Positions 26,441 through 64,000 of a DNA stretch of 64,000 nt are shown in pieces. A program made the position numbers and the translations under genes. The stretch lies in NCBI RefSeq assembly GCF_005503535.1, contig NZ_SCNN01000001.1, positions 558,001 to 622,000 of the forward strand. Reading direction: 5' to 3'. Positions within the stretch are counted from its first letter, which is position 1. Each line of letters begins with the position of its first letter. The notes beneath the pieces were generated by a model. The model did not search any database and was not told the origin of the DNA. It worked only from the letters and a program-made list of their open reading frames with translations. This stretch comes from Mesorhizobium comanense. Lineage in GTDB: Bacteria > Pseudomonadota > Alphaproteobacteria > Rhizobiales > Rhizobiaceae.

Positions 26441-26478
26441 TTCCTGACGACCTGGCCTCAAACGGGTGCCGTCAGGAA
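26441..26478. terminator. Inverted repeat between convergent gabT and parE
   Basis: TTCCTGACG (26441-26449) and CGTCAGGAA (26470-26478) form a 9-base-pair stem with a 20-base loop, flanked by AATTTT on the left and TTTGG on the right. It lies between the gabT stop and overlaps the parE stop codon, so it could terminate both transcripts. The loop is long, so this is only a moderate terminator candidate. Confidence 0.45.
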
Positions 26479-26798
26479 TTTGGATTCTGTAGCCAGGCGG
26501 GAATGTCCCGCTTGGCGTGCAGCACCCGCCACACATCGATATGGTCGAGCTGCTCCAGATAGAAGACCAGATATGGATAGCGCTCGAGTTGCACGCTGCG
26601 CAGACTCGGCAATCCAATTTCGTAGGCAAATCGAAGAGAGCCAAATCCCGGATGGCTTGCTATTAACTTGTAGGCGTTTTGAAGTTCCTCAACGTAGCCC
26701 AATGCCACATGCGAACCAACTTCGCGCACATAGTAGTCAACAGCGTCCTCAATATCCCGTAGAGCAAGACTTCGAGGAATAATCGCCTTTGTGGCCAC
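26472..26798 (-). CDS. parE: ParE/RelE-family toxin
   Basis: 108-residue toxin of the RelE/ParE fold. Starts MATKAIIPRSLALRDIEDAVDYYV; the core SHPGFGSLRFAYEIGLPSLRSVQLERYPYLVFYLEQLDHIDVWRVLHAKRDIPAWL carries the family's Arg residues and the VxRVLHxxRDI ending. The family includes gyrase inhibitors (ParE) and ribosome-dependent RNases (RelE); its pairing with a ParD-type antitoxin favours ParE. The gene begins 5 bases after the antitoxin stop. Confidence 0.9.
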   Translation of the reverse strand: MATKAIIPRSLALRDIEDAVDYYVREVGSHVALGYVEELQNAYKLIASHPGFGSLRFAYEIGLPSLRSVQLERYPYLVFYLEQLDHIDVWRVLHAKRDIPAWLQNPNS

Positions 26799-26803
26799 TT
26801 GAA

Positions 26804-27034
26804 TTATTGGCCCTGCGCTCGTTTTCGCAGTGCGGCGAAATAATCATCATCAACGGGAGTACCCGGCGCTGATGATGCGCCCTCAAGAAGCAATCCGCGC
26901 AGAAGTTGACGATCCTGATCGCGGCGGATCAGTTCACGCACATATTCACTGCTCGTGCCATAGCCGCGATCCGCCACTTGCTGATCGACAAAATGCTTCA
27001 AGCTTTCGGGCAGTGAGATATTCATGGTGCTCAT
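26804..27034 (-). CDS. parD: ParD-family antitoxin
   Basis: 76-residue ribbon-helix-helix protein. N-terminal MNISLPESLKHFVDQQVADRGYGTSSEYVRELIRRDQD is the ParD DNA-binding and dimerisation region; the C-terminal part (about residues 50-76) should bind and neutralise the toxin. An antitoxin-first order with 5 bases between genes is normal for parDE, and the protein is expected to repress its own operon. It ends the gap with the FAD reductase gene. Confidence 0.9.
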   Translation of the reverse strand: MSTMNISLPESLKHFVDQQVADRGYGTSSEYVRELIRRDQDRQLLRGLLLEGASSAPGTPVDDDYFAALRKRAQGQ

Positions 27035-27071: not shown

Positions 27072-28325
27072 CTACGCTCTGGCTTTGGCTGGCTCCATGG
27101 TCTGAAAAGCCGCTAGCGCGGCTTTCAGCCCATCCGGTCCCGCCGCCACCGTCTGCGGTGTCGGTGAGAAGCCGGCGCCGAGCATCTTGCGGCCAAGCAT
27201 GTGATCTCCAGGGCGGTTGACCGATTCGATGCCGAGCAGCCGGTCGCCGGCATAATGGTAGATCGAGAACTTGTTGTCCGGCAGGTCGCCGACCACGACA
27301 TGGCTGTCGCCGCCTGATGTCAGCCCGACCATCTGCAGCTTCATGTCGCCGATGTCGGACCAGAACCACGGCACCGCCGAATAGGCGTCCGCGTGACCGG
27401 TAATCGTGCGGGCGGCGAGGCGTGCCTGGTCGGTGGCGTTCTGCACCGATTCCAGTCGCACGTCGGCGCCGGTGAACCAGTGCCGGTAGGAGGCGGCGTC
27501 GCCGATGGCGAGAATGTCGGGCACCGAACTGCGCATCTGGTGATCGACACGGATCCCGTTGGCGATATCGAGGCCGGCTGTTTGCGCCAGTTCGACATTC
27601 GGCACGGCGCCGATGCCGACGATGACCATGCGCGCCGGCAACCGCTCGCCCGATGAGGTGATTGCAGCGACGACATGGCCGCCTTCGCCTTCGAGCCTTG
27701 CGATCGAGGTGCCGGTCAGGATGCGCACGCCGGTCGCTTCGAGCCTTTGACGGACATGGCTCGCAACCACCGGCGCGACGGCGCGGCCGAGCAGCCTGTC
27801 GACCGCCTCGACGACCGTGACTGTGCGGCCGGCCGCACGCAGCGTCGCGGCTACCTCCAGCCCGATGAAGCCGCCACCAAGGATGACGACATCTTCGCTG
27901 TGCGCGCTGAGTTCACGGATCCGCCGTGCGTCGGCCAGCGAGCGCAGCGACAACACGCCGGAGAGAGCGGCGCCCGGCAGCGGCAGGGCGCGGGGGCGCG
28001 AGCCGGTCGCCAGGATCAGGTGGTCGAAGGCAAGCGTGCCGCCTCCCGATATCTCCAGGCGGCGGCCTGCGGTATCGATGCGGTCGATGCGGATGCCCGG
28101 CCGGTAGTCGATCGCGCTGCCGCTGTAAAAGGCTTCACCGCGCAGCGGTTGCGGCTTGGCCTCGGCATCCTTGATGAACGTCTTCGACAGCGGCGGCTTG
28201 TGGTAGGGGAGTTCGGCTTCGTCGCCAACGAGGATCACCGGCCCCTCGAAGCCGTCCTCGCGCAGGCTTGCCGCCGCCTGCACGCCCGCGTGACCCGCGC
28301 CGATAATGACCACACCGTTCTTCAT
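27072..28325 (-). CDS. FAD-dependent NAD(P)H reductase, ferredoxin/rubredoxin reductase family
   Basis: 417-residue flavoprotein. N-terminal FAD site VVIIGAGHAGVQAAASLRE, then LPYHKPPLSKTF, LATGSRPR, a second GxGxxG for NAD(P)H (VVILGGGFIGLEVAATLR) and IGDAASYRHW that binds FAD near the C-terminus. Close in pattern to reductases that serve oxygenase ferredoxins (rhodocoxin or putidaredoxin type). No ferredoxin or oxygenase gene is adjacent, so the partner is unknown. The ATG at 28325 begins right at the FAD motif and follows GGATGGAAA; a longer frame upstream enters the palindromic repeat. Confidence 0.9.
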   Translation of the reverse strand: MKNGVVIIGAGHAGVQAAASLREDGFEGPVILVGDEAELPYHKPPLSKTFIKDAEAKPQPLRGEAFYSGSAIDYRPGIRIDRIDTAGRRLEISGGGTLAFDHLILATGSRPRALPLPGAALSGVLSLRSLADARRIRELSAHSEDVVILGGGFIGLEVAATLRAAGRTVTVVEAVDRLLGRAVAPVVASHVRQRLEATGVRILTGTSIARLEGEGGHVVAAITSSGERLPARMVIVGIGAVPNVELAQTAGLDIANGIRVDHQMRSSVPDILAIGDAASYRHWFTGADVRLESVQNATDQARLAARTITGHADAYSAVPWFWSDIGDMKLQMVGLTSGGDSHVVVGDLPDNKFSIYHYAGDRLLGIESVNRPGDHMLGRKMLGAGFSPTPQTVAAGPDGLKAALAAFQTMEPAKARA

Positions 28326-28350
28326 TGCGTTTCCATCCCGATTCCATCCT

Positions 28351-28401
28351 GGAGCATGATGCCGAAAAGTGTGAAGCGGCTTTCCGACGACATCATGCTC
28401 C
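28351..28401. repeat. Palindromic intergenic repeat, copy A
   Basis: Ends are a perfect 11-base inverted repeat, GGAGCATGATG (28351-28361) and CATCATGCTCC (28391-28401). The interior contains CCGAAAAGTGTGAAGCGGC, also seen in variant form in copies B and C. It is the same family as the widespread rhizobial intergenic palindromes. It lies just upstream of the FAD reductase start. Confidence 0.85.
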
Positions 28402-28410
28402 ATCTCTTTG

Positions 28411-28466
28411 ATTTAGAGGCGGATTCAGATTTCAGGTCGAACAGACCTGAAATCATCCGACTCTAG
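28411..28466. repeat. Second palindromic unit next to repeat copy A
   Basis: Arms GATTTCAGGTC (28428-28438) and GACCTGAAATC (28444-28454) match perfectly with a 5-base loop. The outer parts TTTAGAGGCGGAT and ATCCGACTCTAG extend the pairing with one mismatch and a 3-base bulge. With copy A it makes a mosaic of two palindromes, as in rhizobial intergenic mosaic elements. Confidence 0.7.
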
Positions 28467-28598
28467 GGCGTTCCACCAAGTGGCGATTGTCTGTCGCCGC
28501 CGCAAGCGAGCTTTGCGGGTCGCACCCGGAATGGCGCCTGTCAATCGGCCAACGCGGAGGCAATCCGTTATGGCTGGATCGCTTAAAGTTGACCATCC

Positions 28599-28621
28599 TA
28601 GTTTAGAATAATTCTAAACTA
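28599..28621. promoter_or_regulatory. ICE-type palindrome, probable Irr-binding site
   Basis: Perfect 23-base palindrome with half-site TAGTTTAGAAT and its reverse complement around a central A. The TTTAGAA/TTCTAAA core is the pattern of the iron control element bound by the rhizobial iron response regulator Irr. It lies 249 bases upstream of the first imelysin gene and 274 upstream of the divergent FAD reductase; a TTGACC (28589-28594) sits just left of it as a possible -35. Binding by Irr is inferred. Confidence 0.8.
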
Positions 28622-28869
28622 TTGTTTCAATTGGCTTTTCCGGTCGATTTTCATTGACTTCCAACCGCGCCGAAGCTTTATGGGAGCCTGCGCGTTGGCG
28701 CATCCCTTTGATGTCTGGGCCTTGAACCCGTTCGATTGGAGGCATTTTGGTGTCTTTCTTCCGCGAACCGCGCGATGGCGCGGCAAGTCTAGCGCCTTAT
28801 GGCATCGACGCCTGGCGCCTGCCGCCGCGCGCGCCGTATTTAGAATTCCCGAGAAACTGGAGAGCGATA

Positions 28870-30159
28870 ATGACAGCACGATATGGCGGCCGGCTCGCCG
28901 CGATCGGCGCCACGGCCCTGCTGACGGCGGCGGTGTTTGTGCTCCCCGCCAAGGCTGAAACCGATGCCAAGGCGGTCATCAAGACCTATGCCGATATCGG
29001 GCTGGCCAAATATGAGGATTCGCTGACCACGGCGCAGGCGCTGGACAAGGCGGTCGACGCGCTGCTGGCGAACCCGTCGGCCGAGATGCTGAATGCTGCC
29101 CGTGACGCCTGGAAGGCGGCGCGCGTACCCTACCAGCAGACCGAGGTCTACCGCTTTGGCAACAAGATCGTCGACGACTGGGAAGGCAAGGTGAATTCCT
29201 GGCCGCTGGACGAAGGCCTGATCGACTACGTCGCCAAGAGCTACGGCACTGAATCGGACACGAATTCGCTCTATACGGCCAATGTGATCGCCAACAAGGA
29301 GATCGAGATCAACGGCAAGAAGGTCGATGCCTCCAAGCTGTCGCCGGAATTCCTGTCCGGCACGCTGCAGGAGGCCGGCGGCATCGAGGCCAATGTCGCC
29401 ACCGGCTATCATGCCATCGAATTCCTGCTCTGGGGCCAGGACCTGCACGGTACCGGCCCGGGCGCAGGCGAGCGTCCCTATACCGATTATGATCTCAAGA
29501 ATTGCACCGGCGGCAATTGCGACCGCCGCGCCGAATATCTGAAGTCGGCCACCACCCTTCTGGTTTCGGACCTGCAGGAAATGGTCGGCAACTGGAAGGA
29601 AGACGGCGCCGCGCGCAAGAACCTCGTCGATGGCGAGCCGAACACCGCCATCTCCGTCATCTTCACCGGCATGGGCTCGCTGTCCTACGGCGAACTGGCG
29701 GGCGAGCGCATGAAGCTCGGCCTCCTGCTGCATGATCCGGAAGAGGAACAGGACTGCTTTTCCGACAACACCTACAACTCGCACCTCTATGACGCCGTTG
29801 GCATCCGTGCCGCCTATCTCGCCGATTACACGCGCCCCGACGGCACCGTGATTTCCGGACCTTCGGTGCACGACATGGTGAAGGCGGTGGACCCGGCGAT
29901 CGACAAGGAACTGTCGGACAAGCTCGACGTCACCGTCGCCAAGATGGAAGCGATCAAGGCGCGGGCTGAGGCGGGCGAAGCCTATGACCAGCAGATCGCC
30001 GAGGGCAACACAGAGGGCAATGCCACCGTGCAGGCGGCGATCGACGCGCTGGTCGACCAGACCAAGTCGATCGAACGCGCTGTCGGTTCGCTGAAGCTCA
30101 ACGCCATCGCCTTCGAGGGCTCCGACAGCCTTGATGCGCCCGACAAGGTCTTCAAATAA
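28870..30159 (+). CDS. Imelysin-family periplasmic iron protein (IrpA-like)
   Basis: 429-residue protein of the imelysin/M75 family, associated with iron uptake. The signal peptide (LAAIGATALLTAAVFVLPAKAE) places it in the periplasm. The conserved GxHxxE motif is complete: GYHAIEFLLWGQDL with His181 and Glu184. Other family features are PYQQTEVYRFGN, WPLDEGLIDYV and SVIFTGMGSLSYGELAGERMKLG. The ATG at 28870 follows GGAGAG; a longer frame upstream lacks a signal peptide at its start. First gene of the iron operon downstream of the ICE palindrome. Not expected to be a peptidase. Confidence 0.92.
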   Translation: MTARYGGRLAAIGATALLTAAVFVLPAKAETDAKAVIKTYADIGLAKYEDSLTTAQALDKAVDALLANPSAEMLNAARDAWKAARVPYQQTEVYRFGNKIVDDWEGKVNSWPLDEGLIDYVAKSYGTESDTNSLYTANVIANKEIEINGKKVDASKLSPEFLSGTLQEAGGIEANVATGYHAIEFLLWGQDLHGTGPGAGERPYTDYDLKNCTGGNCDRRAEYLKSATTLLVSDLQEMVGNWKEDGAARKNLVDGEPNTAISVIFTGMGSLSYGELAGERMKLGLLLHDPEEEQDCFSDNTYNSHLYDAVGIRAAYLADYTRPDGTVISGPSVHDMVKAVDPAIDKELSDKLDVTVAKMEAIKARAEAGEAYDQQIAEGNTEGNATVQAAIDALVDQTKSIERAVGSLKLNAIAFEGSDSLDAPDKVFK

Positions 30160-30219
30160 CCATCGGGCCAACCACCAGCCAAACGGCGCCGGACCGGCGC
30201 CGTCAGCCAGAGCAATGAA

Positions 30220-30531
30220 ATGCTGATCTGCCATTGCAACATAATCACCGAGAGGGAGATCGAGCAGACGATCATCGGACTGCTGGACCAGGATCCCTGG
30301 CAACTTATCGTGCCGGCAAAGGTCTATCACTCGATGCAAAAGCGCGGTCGCTGTTGCGGCTGCTTCCCAAATGTGGTGGAAACGATCATTCGGGTCACCG
30401 AAAACTACCACGCCCGCTCGGAGGCGAGCGGCGTGGATATCGTTTCACATCTGGATCGCGTCAGAGGCCTGCGCGTCCAATACGGGAGCAGAACCCATGA
30501 AAGGCGAAAAGCAGATCATCGAGCGGCTTAA
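30220..30531 (+). CDS. bfd: Bacterioferritin-associated ferredoxin-like [2Fe-2S] protein
   Basis: 103-residue protein with an N-terminal BFD-like domain: [18 protein letters not shown] gives Cys4 and Cys6, and [14 protein letters not shown] gives Cys45 and Cys48 for the [2Fe-2S] cluster. Bfd proteins reduce bacterioferritin to release stored iron. The C-terminal part (residues about 60-103) is longer than in classical 64-residue Bfd, and its last 35 bases overlap the start of bfr in another frame. Its place directly before bfr supports the role; redox function is inferred from the family. Confidence 0.88.
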
Positions 30532-30982
30532 CGAGGCTCTTTTCCTGGAGCTCGGCGCCGTCAACCAGTACTGGGTGCATTACCGTCTCCTGGAGGATTG
30601 GGGATACGCCAAGCTGGCCAAGAAGGAGCGTGCGGAATCGATCGAGGAGATGCAGCATGCCGACAAGCTCGTCGCCCGCATCATCTTCCTCGAGGGCCAT
30701 CCAAATCTTCAGTCCGTGGCGCCGCTGCGCATCGGCCAGAATGTCAAGGAAGTGCTCGAATCCGATCTCGCCGGCGAATATGACGCGCGTACCGCCTACA
30801 AGCGCTCGCGCGAAATCTGCAACGAAGCCGGCGACTACGTGACGATGAAGCTGTTCGAGGAATTGCTGGCCGATGAGGAAGGCCATATCGACTTCCTCGA
30901 GACGCAGCTCGACCTGCTCGCCTCGATCGGCGAGGAAAAATACGGCCTGCTCAACGCCGCGTCGGCGGACGAGGCGGAGTAA
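30497..30982 (+). CDS. bfr: Bacterioferritin
   Basis: 161-residue iron-storage subunit that assembles into a haem-containing 24-mer in the cytoplasm. Ferroxidase ligands are all present: Glu18, Glu51, His54, Glu94, Glu127 and His130; Met52 in EEMQHAD is the haem ligand. The ATG overlaps the end of bfd by 35 bases, so translation is probably coupled. Bacterioferritin normally lies with bfd alone; here both are inside an imelysin/dihaem oxidoreductase operon. Confidence 0.96.
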
Positions 30983-30994
30983 GGACATGCGGGA

Positions 30995-32596
30995 ATGCGG
31001 CGCGCCATAGAACTCTTGCGCCGCCCGTGGCGGGCCGCCGGCCCGCCGCTCCTGCCCGGAAGACCGGCCAGACCGGCGGGCCGGCGTTGCGCCATTCTCG
31101 TGCTGGCGCTCACATCCTCCGCGCTGGCCGGCGAGCTTGAACCAGCGGGCCTTGCCACCACCCGTGCCGACCTCAATGCGAAGGATCAGGCGCGCGTCAC
31201 CGCCGTCACCAGACCGGCCACGGATTTCTCCAGAGCCGAGCCCTTCGAGCGGATGCAGGGCGGCGCCGGCACGTCGCAAAAAGCCGTCAGCCGAGATTCC
31301 TTTTCGCAATCCTCGGCCAACCTCACCTTCGAACAGGAAGGCACCTTCAAGCTCGGCAACGCGCTGTTTCGCAAGAACTGGGTGTCGTCACCGTCGTCGA
31401 CACAGGCTTCGGACGGGCTTGGTCCGCTGTTCAACGAACGTGCCTGCCAGAACTGCCATCTCAAGGACGGCCGCGGCCGCCCGCCGCAAGGCGATGCCGG
31501 CACCACCTCGATGTTCCTGCGGCTGGCGCGCGATGCCGCCACCGCCGAGGAAAAAGCCGCTGTGGCGAGCCGCCAGGTGCTCAATTTCCCCGATCCGGTC
31601 TACGGCGCGCAATTGCAGGAACTGGCCGTGCCTGGTCTCGAGGGCGAAGGCAGGATGCGTATCGACTATCAGGAGCGTAAGGTAGAGCTGACGGATGGCA
31701 CTGTGGTCTTCCTGCGCAAGCCGGCCTATTCGGTTGCCGATCTCGGCTACGGACCGCTCGATGCGCGCACCACACTGTCGCCGCGCCTGACGCCGCCGAT
31801 GATCGGCCTCGGCCTGATCGAGCAGGTCGCGCCGGCCGATATCCTGGCCCTTGCCGACCCGGACGACCGCGATGGCGACGGCATTTCGGGTAAACCCAAC
31901 ATCGTGCGCGACAGCTTGAGCGGGAAATTGACGCTCGGCCGTTTCGGCTGGAAGGCGCAGACCGCCTCGATCCGGCAGCAGGCCGCGGACGCCTTCGCCG
32001 GCGACATCGGCATCTCGACGCCGGAAGAGCCGAAGCATTGGGGCGACTGCACCGCCGCGCAGACAGACTGTCTTGCCATGCCCAACGGCGTACAGGAGCG
32101 CCTCGGCCCGGCAGAGGCGCCCGCGCCGGTGTTGGATCTCGTCACCTTCTATTCCCAGAACCTCGCCGTTCCGGCCCGCCGCGATTTCGACAAGCCTGAT
32201 GTTCTGGCCGGCAAGAAGGTCTTTTACGAAATCGGCTGCGTTGCGTGCCACACGCCGAAATTCGTCACCCGCCGCGACGCACCCGACAAGGCGCAGGCCT
32301 TCCAACTGATCTGGCCCTATTCCGATTTCCTGCTGCACGACATGGGGCCTGGTCTGGCCGACGGCCAGTCCGTGGGTGACGCTACCGGCGTGGAGTGGCG
32401 CACCCCGCCGCTGTGGGGCATCGGGCTGACCGAAGCCGTGAACGGCAATTCCTTCTATCTGCACGACGGCCGCGCGCGCTCGCTGGTCGAGGCGATCCTG
32501 TGGCATGGCGGCGAGGCGCAAAAGGCGCGCGACCGCTTTGCCGCCGCCGACGCCGGCGAACGCGATGCGCTGGTCAAATTCCTGGAGTCCCTATGA
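30995..32596 (+). CDS. Dihaem c-type oxidoreductase (DUF1111 family)
   Basis: 533-residue periplasmic protein of the di-haem oxidoreductase (formerly 'thiol oxidoreductase') family found beside imelysins. The N-terminus is very basic (RRPWRAAGPPLLPGRPARPAGRR) before the hydrophobic CAILVLALTSSALAG. Two haem c sites: CQNCH (residues 151-155, in GLGPLFNERACQNCH) and CVACH (415-419). The conserved ending GNSFYLHDGRARSLVEAILWHGGEA is the family signature. It starts 12 bases after bfr and its stop overlaps the next ATG (ATGA). It may oxidise or reduce iron at the envelope; the substrate is unproven. Confidence 0.92.
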   Translation: MRRAIELLRRPWRAAGPPLLPGRPARPAGRRCAILVLALTSSALAGELEPAGLATTRADLNAKDQARVTAVTRPATDFSRAEPFERMQGGAGTSQKAVSRDSFSQSSANLTFEQEGTFKLGNALFRKNWVSSPSSTQASDGLGPLFNERACQNCHLKDGRGRPPQGDAGTTSMFLRLARDAATAEEKAAVASRQVLNFPDPVYGAQLQELAVPGLEGEGRMRIDYQERKVELTDGTVVFLRKPAYSVADLGYGPLDARTTLSPRLTPPMIGLGLIEQVAPADILALADPDDRDGDGISGKPNIVRDSLSGKLTLGRFGWKAQTASIRQQAADAFAGDIGISTPEEPKHWGDCTAAQTDCLAMPNGVQERLGPAEAPAPVLDLVTFYSQNLAVPARRDFDKPDVLAGKKVFYEIGCVACHTPKFVTRRDAPDKAQAFQLIWPYSDFLLHDMGPGLADGQSVGDATGVEWRTPPLWGIGLTEAVNGNSFYLHDGRARSLVEAILWHGGEAQKARDRFAAADAGERDALVKFLESL

Positions 32597-33675
32597 TGCC
32601 GAAGCGTTCCTCGCTGTTTCTCGCCCTTCCGCTGGTGCTGCTCGGCGTCTTGCCCGCCTCGGCATCGGTGAAGGCCTCCGATATCATCCAGCGTGCGGTC
32701 GAGGGCTTCGTCCGGCCGGCCTATGCGGGCCTGCACGAACATGCGCAGGCCCTGGCAAAAGCGCTGCACAAGCTCTGCGAGGCGCCTTCGCAAGCAGCGC
32801 TCGAGGCGGCGCGGGTTGAATTCTCCGCTGCTGTCTACGCCTGGTCGTCAGCCGAGATCATCGGCTTCGGGCCGATCAAGGAAAACAACAGGCTGGAACG
32901 GATGCTGTACTGGCCGGATCGCAAGGGCCTCGGCTTGAAGCAGGTGCAGGCCGTGTTGTCCGCCAAGGACCCTTCTGCCACCGATCCGGCGCAACTGGCG
33001 GGCAAGAGCATTGCCATGCAGGGGCTGGGCGCGCTGGAATTCGTCCTTTACGGCGATGGCGCCGAGGCGCTGGCTGCCAAGGACGATCCCTACCGCTGCG
33101 CCTATGGTGCGGCGGTTGCGGGCAACATCGAAACCATCGCCAGCGAGGTTGCCGATGCCTGGAACAAGCCGGACGGCTTTGCCGCGCTCTGGGCAAACCC
33201 CGGGCCGCAGAACCCCCTCTATCGCGACGGCAACGAGGCCGTGACCGAACTGGTCGGTGTCCTGATCAACGAGTTGGAGATGGTCCGTGATGTCCGCCTC
33301 AAAGGCTTTCTTGGCACAAAGCCGGACGGCGACAAGCCGAAGTTGACGATCTACTGGCGCTCGCAAAACACCACCAATGCGCTGGCCGGAAATCTTGCCG
33401 GCATCGACGCCTTGTTTCAGGTCTCGAAACTTGGTGATGCCCTGCCCGAAGAGGCGCGCTGGATGGCAGAGTCGATCCACATCCAGCTCACGAACGGGGT
33501 CTCGACCGCCAAATCCGTCCAGGGTCCGATCGACAAGGCGCTTGCCGATCCGGCGCTGCGCCAGAAACTGGAGCATTTCAGGCTGATCACCTCCAGCCTG
33601 TCCACCCTGATCGGCACCAGGCTGACCCAAGAATTCGGCCTGACCGCCGGGTTCTCCTCGCTGGATGGGGACTGA
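32593..33675 (+). CDS. Second imelysin-family protein, motif His absent
   Basis: 360-residue imelysin-like protein with a signal peptide (SLFLALPLVLLGVLPASA). The fold is recognisable from AAVYAWSSAEIIGFGPI and the EFVLYG region, but the GxHxxE motif reads GLGALE (residues 144-149): the His is replaced by Gly146 while Glu149 stays. It overlaps the dihaem protein stop (ATGA). Probably a periplasmic partner that differs from the first imelysin in metal binding (inference). The closest types are the smaller imelysins that accompany DUF1111 and DUF1513 proteins. Confidence 0.88.
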   Translation: MMPKRSSLFLALPLVLLGVLPASASVKASDIIQRAVEGFVRPAYAGLHEHAQALAKALHKLCEAPSQAALEAARVEFSAAVYAWSSAEIIGFGPIKENNRLERMLYWPDRKGLGLKQVQAVLSAKDPSATDPAQLAGKSIAMQGLGALEFVLYGDGAEALAAKDDPYRCAYGAAVAGNIETIASEVADAWNKPDGFAALWANPGPQNPLYRDGNEAVTELVGVLINELEMVRDVRLKGFLGTKPDGDKPKLTIYWRSQNTTNALAGNLAGIDALFQVSKLGDALPEEARWMAESIHIQLTNGVSTAKSVQGPIDKALADPALRQKLEHFRLITSSLSTLIGTRLTQEFGLTAGFSSLDGD

Positions 33676-33678
33676 TCC

Positions 33679-34782
33679 TTGAGAACACCGCTCATCGACC
33701 GCCGCGATTTTCTGAGGGCCGCCGGCCTCGGCTTTGCCGCCGCCATGGCGCCGTCCGCCTGGGCGGACACGCTCGCGGCGGACGCTGTCTTCGCCACTGC
33801 TTTCGTCAAGCGTGACGGCAGCTACGGGGCGGCCGTCCTGTCGGAGGCCGGCAAGGTGCTGCATGCGGTCGACCTGCCTGACCGGGGGCACGACGTAACC
33901 TTCGACCCGATTTCCAAACGGTCGGTCGTCTTTGCCCGCCAGCCCGGCACATTCGCGGTCGTTTTCGATCATACCGGGCGAGAGGCGCCGCAGACCATTG
34001 CCAGCATCACCGGCCGTCATTTCTTCGGGCATGGCGTCTTTTCTCCCGACGGCGCGCTCCTCTATGCCACCGAGAACGACTTCGACAACGCCGCCGGCGT
34101 GGTCGGCGTCTATGATGCGCGGGCGAAATTTCGCCGGATCGGCGAATTCCCCACTTACGGCATGGGGCCGCACGAGTTGTTGCTGATGGCCGACGGCAGG
34201 ACCATTGCGGTCGCCAATGGCGGCATCGAGACCCATCCCGACTACGGCCGCGCCGAGCTCAACATCGCCACCATGCAGCCGTCCTATGTGCTGGTCGACC
34301 GCGTCACCGGCGACCTGATCGAAAAGCACGAACTGCCCCCGGCGCTCCATCAGCTGTCCATCCGCCACATGGACACCGACCAGACGGGCACGGTCTGGTT
34401 CGGCTGCCAGTACCGGGGTCCGGGCACGGATCGTCCGCTGCTCGTCGGGCGTGCAGTGCGCGGCAAGGAGTTGCAGCTCATCGAGATGCCGCCGGATGTG
34501 TTGTCCGGTTTCCGCAACTATATCGGTTCGGTCGCCGCGAACCCGGCCGCCGGCACGGTCGCCGTCTCGTCGCCGGAAGGCAATGTTTTCGTGATCGTCG
34601 ACGCCGGGAGCGGCAAGGTCGTTTCGGCCAGCACGCTGATCGAGGTCTGCGGTCTGGCGCCCGACGCTGCCGGCTTCATGGCGACGACCGGGGCCGGGAT
34701 TATCGTCGATGGCGCCGGCACGACACGGTCCGAGCCGGACTACGTCTGGGACAACCACATGCTGCGCATCGATCGGACCTGA
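33679..34782 (+). CDS. DUF1513 family beta-propeller-like protein, Tat-exported
   Basis: 367-residue protein with a twin-arginine signal (DRRDFLRAAGLGFAAAMAPSAWA), so it is exported folded. The body has repeated strand patterns (FDPISKRSVVFARQPG, FSPDGALLYATENDF, HELLLMADGRTIAVANGG) that suggest a beta-propeller, and DUF1513 family segments such as GRHFFGHGVFS. The start is TTG with GGGGAC at about 8 bases upstream, 3 bases after the imelysin stop. Last gene of the iron operon; this set is known from other proteobacteria, but the biochemical role is not established. Confidence 0.88.
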   Translation: MRTPLIDRRDFLRAAGLGFAAAMAPSAWADTLAADAVFATAFVKRDGSYGAAVLSEAGKVLHAVDLPDRGHDVTFDPISKRSVVFARQPGTFAVVFDHTGREAPQTIASITGRHFFGHGVFSPDGALLYATENDFDNAAGVVGVYDARAKFRRIGEFPTYGMGPHELLLMADGRTIAVANGGIETHPDYGRAELNIATMQPSYVLVDRVTGDLIEKHELPPALHQLSIRHMDTDQTGTVWFGCQYRGPGTDRPLLVGRAVRGKELQLIEMPPDVLSGFRNYIGSVAANPAAGTVAVSSPEGNVFVIVDAGSGKVVSASTLIEVCGLAPDAAGFMATTGAGIIVDGAGTTRSEPDYVWDNHMLRIDRT

Positions 34783-34880
34783 GTGACCGAAGCGAAGCCG
34801 CTTAACAAATTATGCACTATCCTCTTGCGGTGGCGCGCCGTGGCGGGCACAGGGAAAGTGTTTTTCGAACCGGTCTTTTT

Positions 34881-35558
34881 ATGAAACTGCTCGCCATCGA
34901 CTGTGCCGCCAGCCTCTGCGCTGCCTGCGTCTACGACGCGGCGGGCGGGCAGGAGCTTGGCCGTTCGGTGCTCGATCTCGGCAAGGGCCATGCCGAACAC
35001 CTGATGGCAGTCATCGCCGAGGCGCTGAAGGCAGGCGCTACGGGCTATGCCGGCCTCGGCGCCATTGCCGTCTCAGTCGGCCCGGGTTCCTTCACCGGCC
35101 TTCGTGTCGGCGTATCGACCGCGCGTGGCCTGGCGCTGGCGCTAAAAATTCCGGCGATCGGGGTAACGACGCTGGAGGCGCTGGCCGCCGAGGCGGCGAC
35201 GCAGTTCCCCGGCCGTTCCGTCCTGGCGGCGCTCGATGCCGGCCGGGAGGAAATTCATGCCGCTCTTTATGATAAAATGTCAGTTTTGACTTACGGTCCA
35301 GCGGTGACCACGCTTGCCGAAGCCGTAGCCATGGCGACGGACCATTCGTCGGTGCTGGCCGGCACCGCTGCGACGCTGATCGCCGGGCCGGCCGGTCGCG
35401 CCTTCGACATCGGGCCCCGGGCGGCCACCGCCGACATTCTCACCTACGCCCGTTTGGCCGCGGCCAAGGGGGTGAGCGACAAGCCGAAACCGCTTTATTT
35501 GCGCGGCGCGGACGCCAAGCCGCAGGCCGGATTTATTCTTTCGAGGCAAGAAAATTAG
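34881..35558 (+). CDS. tsaB: tRNA threonylcarbamoyladenosine biosynthesis protein TsaB
   Basis: 225-residue ASKHA-fold protein that with TsaD and TsaE makes t6A37 on ANN-decoding tRNAs. N-terminus MKLLAIDCAASLCAACVYD, then SVGPGSFTGLRVGVSTARGLALAL, the family signature. Start 34881 is chosen because it gives the canonical KLLAIDCA beginning. The rimI ATG directly follows the stop, so the two are co-transcribed. Confidence 0.95.
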   Translation: MKLLAIDCAASLCAACVYDAAGGQELGRSVLDLGKGHAEHLMAVIAEALKAGATGYAGLGAIAVSVGPGSFTGLRVGVSTARGLALALKIPAIGVTTLEALAAEAATQFPGRSVLAALDAGREEIHAALYDKMSVLTYGPAVTTLAEAVAMATDHSSVLAGTAATLIAGPAGRAFDIGPRAATADILTYARLAAAKGVSDKPKPLYLRGADAKPQAGFILSRQEN

Positions 35559-63779: not shown

Positions 63780-64000
63780 CAATCTTTCCCCATATCGTCC
63801 CGGGCGGTAGCGCGCCCTTGTCGTTGGTGTCCTAACACAATCTGTTTCAGGCCGGAAACCGGCGTTTGCGCTTAACCCGCCAGCCTGCCGGGGTCAATGC
63901 GCGCTATTGATCGCATTCCGACGACAGAATATATGTCAGCAGGGGTCCGGTTTCGGCAGACATTCATCTTTTTGCCATTCTGGGCGTGTCTTGAGGCGGA
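63780..64000. other. Upstream region of fabA to window end
   Basis: 221 bases with no supported gene. A short palindrome GCCGG-AAA-CCGGC lies at 63851-63863. A plus-strand frame from about 63933 stays open to the edge but resembles nothing. In other rhizobia the iron regulator irr lies near fabA, beyond this edge at most. Confidence 0.5.

Follow-up and report, generated by a model that had tools for sequence, protein, structure and literature searches.

An iron operon of known kind in Mesorhizobium comanense and a leader hairpin found before other iron genes of its order

Among described systems, an operon of Rhodobacter sphaeroides comes closest to the six-gene iron operon that we analysed in a 64,000-nucleotide stretch of Mesorhizobium comanense (hereafter the window, meaning the whole stretch). 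In R. sphaeroides the run hemP-irpA-bfd-bfr continues with RSP_1545, which probably encodes a thiol oxidoreductase having two haem sites, and then with RSP_1544-1543 (PMC4618611). Co-transcription of these genes is "strongly suggested" by differential RNA sequencing (dRNA-seq), with control by IscR via Iron-Rhodo-boxes (PMC4618611). Under iron limitation the wild type raises irpA 4.05-fold, bfd 2.71-fold and bfr 1.99-fold (PMC3413700), and induction of irpA and bfd in iron limitation is also found in PMC4176601. The window operon has the same order of imelysin, bfd, bfr and two-haem protein, then two further genes, and in R. sphaeroides this arrangement is iron-regulated (PMC4618611, PMC3413700, PMC4176601, PMC4344238). 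Because this gene order has been published for a bacterium of another taxonomic order (PMC4618611), the operon as such is not new. The two differ in their control regions, with hemP first and an IscR/Iron-Rhodo-box system in R. sphaeroides but an Irr box and a leader hairpin in the window, where no hemP was noticed by eye. The operon alone is ordinary in kind, and it is the leader element that looks new.

DUF1513 proteins are members of operons of the PA4370 type. The window carries several features of that type, namely imelysins with GYHAIE and GLGALE motifs, a DUF1111 protein with two CxxCH motifs and a DUF1513 protein, and its Irr box is an indirect sign of the iron-regulated expression that also marks the type. 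The Pseudomonas aeruginosa imelysin operon (PA4370 type, PMC3143127) shares the GxHxxE imelysin, the DUF1111 dihaem protein and the GxxxxE imelysin with the window but is under Fur rather than an Irr box, and the word "bacterioferritin" occurs 0 times in PMC3143127. It is the operon type without bfd-bfr that this P. aeruginosa operon resembles (PMC3143127). EfeUOB has in common with the window operon an imelysin domain and a peroxidase partner outside the cytoplasm, whereas an EfeU-type permease is lacking in the window operon (PMC3143127). The rhizobial genes mbfA and bfr carry the same type of box as the window but are stand-alone storage or export genes, while here bfr is joined to imelysins (PMC7540006, PMC7762939).

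The initial annotation of the window had read an imelysin-bfd-bfr-dihaem protein-imelysin-DUF1513 order on one strand, and all six genes were found so, on the plus strand from 28870 to 34782 (Table 1). The junctions, in gene order, are 60 nt (the largest gap), an overlap (bfd/bfr), 12 nt, a 4-nt overlap and 3 nt, so that three of the five overlap or almost touch. A simple scan found no terminator between the genes and no sign of separate transcripts; it gave four terminator-like sites against 5.0 expected, those on the plus strand all intragenic, and one promoter-like site in the operon, inside imelysin 2 (1.4 expected). Pfam assigns five of the six proteins clearly, and the exception is bfd. 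That annotation had called the bfd-bfr pair complete, which holds without reserve for bfr: the protein is clear by TIGR00754, and its ferroxidase ligands E18, E51, H54, E94, E127 and H130 and its haem methionine M52 are all present. For bfd it holds in part. The four cysteines (CxC...CxxC) are kept in 19 of 19 aligned sequences, the window copy included, with an extra C46 in 11 of the 19, the window copy among them; the score of the window protein, however, is under the curated Fer2_BFD cut-off, and we therefore call it a divergent or Bfd-like protein rather than a clear member of the profile. In family profile searches none of the six proteins matched a permease family, and on this showing the operon falls short of a full uptake route.

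Table 1. Features of the operon, its leader and its divergent neighbour (window positions)
Feature	Position	Strand	Evidence or remark
Imelysin 1 (GxHxxE type)	28870..30159	+	PF09375 300 bits; PDB 7xrx chain 411 bits; GYHAIE at residue 179
Divergent Bfd	30220..30531	+	Fer2_BFD 14 bits against a cut-off of 26; C4, C6, C45, C48
Bacterioferritin (bfr)	30497..30982	+	TIGR00754 180 bits, cut-off 125.6; PDB 9gzu and 3fvb chains 283 bits
Dihaem oxidoreductase (DHOR, DUF1111)	30995..32596	+	PF06537 316 bits; CxxCH at residues 151 and 415
Imelysin 2 (GxxxxE type)	32593..33675	+	PF09375 173 bits; GLGALE at residue 144
DUF1513 protein	33679..34782	+	PF07433 371 bits
TTGACC, possible -35 of a putative promoter P1 that the Irr box would overlap	28589..28594	+	TAAAGTTGAC largely conserved in genus, 7 nt upstream of the Irr box
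Irr box (iron control element, ICE) TTTAGAATAATTCTAAA, perfect inverted repeat	28602..28618	.	Sole window match at ≤3 mismatches (0.21 expected)
Likely promoter P2 (putative): TTGACT, 17 nt, TTTATG	28654..28682	+	Across 35 genus sequences TTGAC is conserved, GCTTTATGG in large part
Leader RNA element (38 nt): inner hairpin GGG 28717-28719, loop CCUUGAA 28720-28726, CCC 28727-28729	28705..28742	+	
Possible outer helix, containing Shine-Dalgarno GGAGG 28738-28742	28705-28712 with 28735-28742	+	
Leader reading frame (GTG), in frame with imelysin 1 here	28750..28869	+	Directly after the element
Divergent flavin adenine dinucleotide (FAD) ferredoxin-type reductase, possible Bfd reductase	27072..28322	-	Pyr_redox_2 and Reductase_C

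The leader hairpin and its gene company

The leader element has the core GGG-CCTTGAA-CCC, after which come GGAG and a start codon, and it was searched for with the pattern GGGCCTTKMACCCN{2,14}GGAG. Comparison within the genus used the 35 loci tallied from the 37 same-genus genomes searched (the fragmented genome G169 was left out). In their alignment the leader block is more conserved than its flanks, and a start codon stands 3 to 8 nt past GGAGG in all 35 loci. The frame that begins there continues in phase into imelysin 1 in 22 of them and is separate in 13. The closing pair of the GGG/CCC stem can form in 105 of 109 distinct sequences; it takes six pair types and shows 47 double changes. 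One position further out, pairing is seen in 82, and the two pairs beyond that form in only 46 and 37. For the two innermost variable pairs, none of 500 shuffles and no slid register equals the observed share of paired sequences, number of double changes or covariation score, although the number of pair types is ordinary (reached in 172 of the 500 shuffles). The inner stem thus covaries strongly, while the outer stem is uncertain. In folds of native sequences, made without a shuffled control, the mean pairing probability of GGAG is 0.45 to 0.91 by gene class.

Neither the families nor the literature that we searched contained this element. Rfam 15 gave no match at E 0.1 for window positions 28000-35000 or at E 1 for 10 loci, the sequence and combined search terms were unmatched in the full text of the open-licence literature, and no matching motif stands among the available passages of a paper describing 104 motifs (PMC2864571). 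The iron-responsive element (IRE) of animals is likewise a short hairpin in the mRNA leader of iron genes, and the analogy goes no further than this: we do not claim membership for the window hairpin, whose loop is CCUUGAA. The apical loop of the animal IRE is CAGUGN. Read as its reverse complement, GGGTTCAAGGCCC, the hairpin core (e.g., window 28717-28729) resembles a tRNA T-arm. Three other interpretations of the core were considered and dropped. A leader peptide FDVWALNPFDWR has a frame that is open in many copies, but by eye its starts are unconserved, some copies have stops, and the changes track the stem over codons. A mini-open reading frame, ATG-TCN-GGG-CCT-TGA, is disfavoured, being broken in several copies (by eye), and an H-type pseudoknot pairing loop CCUU with GGAG was set aside on paper alone.

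Within the order (Hyphomicrobiales) the pattern is found in 104 of 297 genomes, at 123 distinct sites (126 rows), compared with 6 for the reversed pattern. Outside the order it occurs in 3 of 189 class-sample genomes, which is at chance level because it is similar to the 2 occurrences of the reversed pattern in all 192. The bare 13-mer core occurs twice in the genome that holds the window, both times at the start regions of iron or iron-sulfur (Fe-S) genes. With a covariance model trained on 94 sequences, from which the window element was excluded but in which a near-identical M. jarvisii copy was included, the same genome gave the window element at 37.2 bits, sufA (a training member) at 33.8 bits and sufB at 24.9 bits (E 0.0019). 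The match ranked fourth has E 0.88, which leaves three significant sites. Model matches at E 0.01 or better were found in 16 of 80 dihaem loci of the order.

We classified the genes that follow the hairpin at 173 loci. The order contributes 93 of these, namely L199 and 92 of the 123 sites; the other 80 are named loci, listed among at least 120 matched stretches in a search of 257 Gb. At 81 of the order loci the hairpin precedes genes for iron, Fe-S or cysteine functions, at 7 only a gene of the CRDEC family described below was seen, and 5 are unassigned. Clustering by blastp of the 173 (the named ones among the matches listed) gave ferric-iron-type binding proteins at 45, SufA at 34, CRDEC at 16 (and 3 more with imelysin), imelysin at 12, SufB at 11 and NfuA at 9 loci, with smaller clusters of Bfd (6), MnmA (3), CysE (2) and monothiol glutaredoxin (1). 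Six of the 31 loci left unassigned by clustering were then placed: L244 and L279 with Bfd, L265 with CRDEC and imelysin, L273 with CRDEC, and, for proteins that are cut off and were judged by eye, L329 with SufA and L366 with SufB. Besides the 5 order loci, 20 of the 80 named loci among the matches listed remain unassigned, and 15 of these 20 have titles that place them outside the order, a result expected by chance in 257 Gb. The start codon is 6 to 9 nt after GGAG at 118 of 142 hairpin sites.

For most clusters, one representative was compared with independent profiles or structures. The cluster representatives of SufB, MnmA, CysE and Grx4 are above their NCBIfam equivalog cut-offs and that of SufA is above a subfamily cut-off (the SufA of the window genome is also above an equivalog one), while the NfuA of that genome is supported by Pfam Nfu_N and NifU. 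The binding-protein representative bore weak NCBIfam names for a phosphonate or thiamine binding protein, which were overruled by its full-length match to FbpA chains in PDB (1q35, 359 bits), and on this match we call the class ferric-iron type. For the second type of binding protein, a 60-residue piece also matches iron-binding chains. The representatives of CRDEC and of the L272 Bfd have no NCBIfam match, and the only Pfam hit for CRDEC is AcnX at E 0.09.

CRDEC, an uncharacterised family that we named by its motif, stands between hairpin and imelysin or after a ferric-iron binding protein (e.g., L192, L213, L041, L083, L068, L056, L361 and L377). Beyond the order, the core was seen before mnmA in L321, L325 and L353, which are titled Hyphomonadaceae, Hyphomonas and Henriciella, and before a SufA-type gene in L364, titled as an Arenimonas (gammaproteobacterium) metagenome-assembled genome of unchecked purity.

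The Irr box and the weighing of the readings

Upstream of the leader lies an Irr box whose half-site letters agree at 14 of 14 positions in 34 of the 35 genus loci and at 13 of 14 in the other. The distance from the box to the imelysin 1 ATG is 251 nt. In the window genome (7.36 Mb; G000:C11 is the contig that holds the window) there are 6 matches to the box at ≤2 mismatches, compared with 2 for the reversed pattern. Of 74 loci compared, 21 carry an Irr-box-like site (≥11 of 14 letters) in the 400 nt before imelysin 1, four of them in this genus, where shuffles predict 0.7; loci without imelysin 1 or with short upstream sequence were dropped from the count. irrA itself (NF045678, 223 bits, cut-off 150) is on G000:C11 just past window position 64000, and one Fur-family protein besides IrrA was found in this genome. 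The irrA gene adjoins a fabA-like gene (by eye) and lies about 29 kb downstream of the operon that it may control. Irr, a regulator that senses haem, probably governs transcription of the operon from the box upstream.

We favour, as a somewhat probable account, the reading that this is an iron operon of known kind, transcribed under an Irr box, in which a leader hairpin shared with other iron genes would act as a translational control. Several observations weigh against it. The exact hairpin pattern is absent from 193 of the 297 order genomes, and the counts from related genomes are not independent of one another. The letters GGG, CCC and GGAG and most of the loop were set by the search pattern itself. 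They and the GGG/CCC pairs therefore prove nothing, and the free evidence is confined to the flanking sequence, the genes that follow and the spacing to the start codon. For the outer helix, 78% of cells are paired in 45 distinct sequences of common spacing, compared with 75% in shuffles, and there are 8 double changes, a number reached in 2 of 500 shuffles, while registers slid by +1 to +3 give 11 to 16. RNAalifold folds the alignment into the inner hairpin only, although single-sequence folds often show the outer helix, and the window leader folds no more stably than its shuffles (z -0.57 for 88 nt and z 0.82 for 271 nt). The Irr box could act in either direction, since it would overlap P1, which would make Irr a repressor, and also stands about 79 nt upstream of the putative P2 start, an activator-like distance. 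Finally, rhizobial bfr and mbfA are under repression by Irr when iron is low, a sign opposite to that in Rhodobacter (PMC7762939, PMC7540006).

This last point also supports an alternative that we consider doubtful but still a real contender: that the operon is under storage-type control, being repressed by Irr at low iron and induced by iron, with the imelysin and dihaem proteins serving in excess or detoxification. Consistent with it, four of the five best Irr boxes in the window genome precede imelysin 1, mbfA (a perfect box), nfuA and a NifS-type cysteine desulfurase just before sufB, the fifth being at an MFS/TetR-like locus (named by eye). It would likewise suit a repressor that a TTGAC, conserved in the genus, ends 7 nt upstream of the box. 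However, the region downstream of the box holds another conserved pair of promoter-like motifs (its TTTATG reads TTTAAG in some species), and the R. sphaeroides operon is induced by iron limitation (PMC3413700, PMC4176601).

In another alternative, the leader sequence could be a DNA operator, for example of RirA or an IscR-like repressor, with the inverted repeat as a protein-binding palindrome rather than an RNA. In its favour, the genes that carry the hairpin (those for the ferric-iron binding protein, imelysin, bfd-bfr and suf) have members in common with the R. sphaeroides regulon of IscR and the Iron-Rhodo-box, and the Iron-Rhodo-box is a 19-bp palindrome with one site inside the R. sphaeroides operon (PMC4618611). 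Nevertheless, we think an operator unlikely. The loop CCTTGAA is asymmetrical, the letters of the closing pair are not fixed but vary over its six pair types, and the elements lie over the ribosome-binding site, with a regular spacing to the start. In the 150 nt before the hairpin core, a promoter-like TTGAC is frequent at FbpA (41 of 45), imelysin (11 of 12), Bfd (6 of 6), CRDEC (10 of 16) and NfuA (5 of 9) sites but is found at only 2 of 34 SufA and 1 of 11 SufB sites, and this scarcity upstream of the suf sites is why the hairpin fits an RNA feature better than a promoter site. In the window genome the sufA site comes after a sufS-like gene (by eye).

The bfd-bfr slot

The four-gene periplasmic core of imelysin 1, dihaem protein, imelysin 2 and DUF1513 is conserved, and bfd-bfr is placed in a slot after imelysin 1. 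Both bfd and bfr stand between imelysin 1 and the dihaem gene in 33 of the 35 same-genus loci (30 of the 35 extend only to the start of the dihaem gene), and the remaining 2 have a broken bfr. One further same-genus locus (G096, L079), beyond the 35 tallied, is complete, and eight named Mesorhizobium loci are 74 to 88% identical to the window locus over stretches of 1.2 to 5.3 kb. Because the same-genus loci share the placement of bfd-bfr, the arrangement is not an assembly artefact, and one outcome that would have refuted the initial annotation, absence of the arrangement from relatives, does not apply. The two loci with a broken bfr (L077 and L078, in G064 and G123) have an internal deletion in bfr and an intact bfd, which leaves a Bfd without its Bfr; no Bfr match at E 0.001 was found in either genome. 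Between these two genomes the bfd codons show 3 silent and 5 replacement changes, numbers too small to make a case about selection on bfd after the loss of bfr.

In the order as a whole the picture is different. Dihaem matches are found in 90 of 150 genomes, and we surveyed 80 loci (up to 19.5 kb) from 79 other genomes, leaving out 10 genomes with mostly weak or partial matches. Imelysin 1 is missing from 7 of the 80. Of the other 73 (core loci), 57 have no bfd or bfr within the fetched locus, 6 have bfd-bfr in the slot and 3 have bfd alone there; 5 have a divergent bfr-bfd upstream, within 10 kb of imelysin 1, 1 has same-strand bfd-bfr upstream, and 1 has bfd upstream. The initial annotation was thus also right that bfd-bfr is normally a separate pair, as it is in most of the order. 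A class sample gave dihaem matches in 51 of 192 genomes, and of the 35 loci fetched, 33 are the core without bfd-bfr, 2 have no imelysin 1 and none has bfd-bfr in the slot. When slot occupancy (loci with bfd alone counted as occupied) is mapped on a tree of 75 dihaem proteins, 6 changes are needed, of which at least 4 are forced by well supported branches, and the insertion has therefore been gained or lost repeatedly. In other families the slot holds, by eye, a porin-like (L051, L054, L057, L065) or multicopper-oxidase-like (L076, L106, L109) gene. Since different genes are held there, we regard it as a variable site of the operon.

The hairpin recurs before imelysin genes in other families and before stand-alone bfd-bfr in L199. 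Altogether, seven loci have bfd-bfr with a hairpin of its own and no imelysin in the fetched stretch behind (L199, L244, L272, L274, L276, L278 and L279), and in two genomes (G375 and G447) imelysin and bfd-bfr are apart and each carries a copy, which argues that the two units belong together. That bfd-bfr is a mere passenger, placed in the slot by chance linkage without functional coupling, would suit the 57 core loci that lack both genes, the class-sample loci, none of which has the pair in the slot, and the two genomes that lost bfr but retained the rest of the operon, but is quite improbable given at least four gains or losses, the five divergent pairs close to imelysin 1 and the hairpins on separate units.

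The gene for a FAD reductase is the divergent neighbour of the operon in all eight wide same-genus loci and is possibly, by inference, the electron donor for Bfd. As a general partner of the operon it was rejected, because its adjacency is confined to the genus: the other 112 loci searched gave only 3 distant matches, none of them adjacent. Reading alone suggests a ParE-like toxin and antitoxin-like gene pair at window positions 26472-27034 on the minus strand.

Proposed mechanism and meaning

In the favoured reading, Irr would set transcription at the perfect upstream box. The leader hairpin beside the Shine-Dalgarno sequence, perhaps held by the outer stem, would set translation of the leader frame, which runs into imelysin 1 or ends near it. 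A common factor (a protein, a small RNA or a metabolite) would adjust translation of the hairpin genes with iron or Fe-S status; such a factor is probable because the same hairpin is found at the start codons of FbpA, SufA, SufB, NfuA, Bfd and imelysin genes. That Irr acts here, the sign of its action, the control of translation by the hairpin and iron as the signal are what we infer, from the genes and their order and conservation, the box, the hairpin with its inner-stem covariation, and the gene company, all of which are observed. The imelysin and dihaem proteins would handle iron outside the cytoplasm, Bfr would store it and Bfd would release it. Iron shortage would be expected to induce the genes for capture and for storage and release together, as in R. 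sphaeroides, with Bfd freeing stored iron while the periplasmic proteins help to import more. Most likely, the operon brings in and holds iron.

Joint expression of the periplasmic and storage genes had been proposed from the outset, and this idea stands. Its support is partial and consists of the tight, conserved run of genes, the single Irr-box leader and the dRNA-seq of the R. sphaeroides counterpart. The accompanying proposals, that storage is matched to the rate of iron entry and that the dihaem protein switches iron between ferric and ferrous states, are guesses.

Quite possible, though tentative, is a wider interpretation in which the Hyphomicrobiales have an iron/Fe-S regulon at the level of RNA. 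CCUUGAA hairpins over ribosome-binding sites would be read by one trans-acting sensor, in the manner of the IRE and the iron regulatory protein (IRP) and beneath Irr, the candidate sensor being either a small RNA or a protein that binds RNA and carries an Fe-S cluster, for example aconitase.

The global iron regulators named in the available parts of one review are Irr and RirA, both DNA-binding proteins (PMC7762939). If the leader element is functional, genes for uptake, for storage and for the assembly of Fe-S clusters would share a post-transcriptional iron control, in an order to which rhizobia, methylotrophs and brucellae belong. To specialists in rhizobial iron control it would come as a surprise that a single RNA motif marks the mRNAs for binding proteins, suf, nfu, bfd and imelysin.

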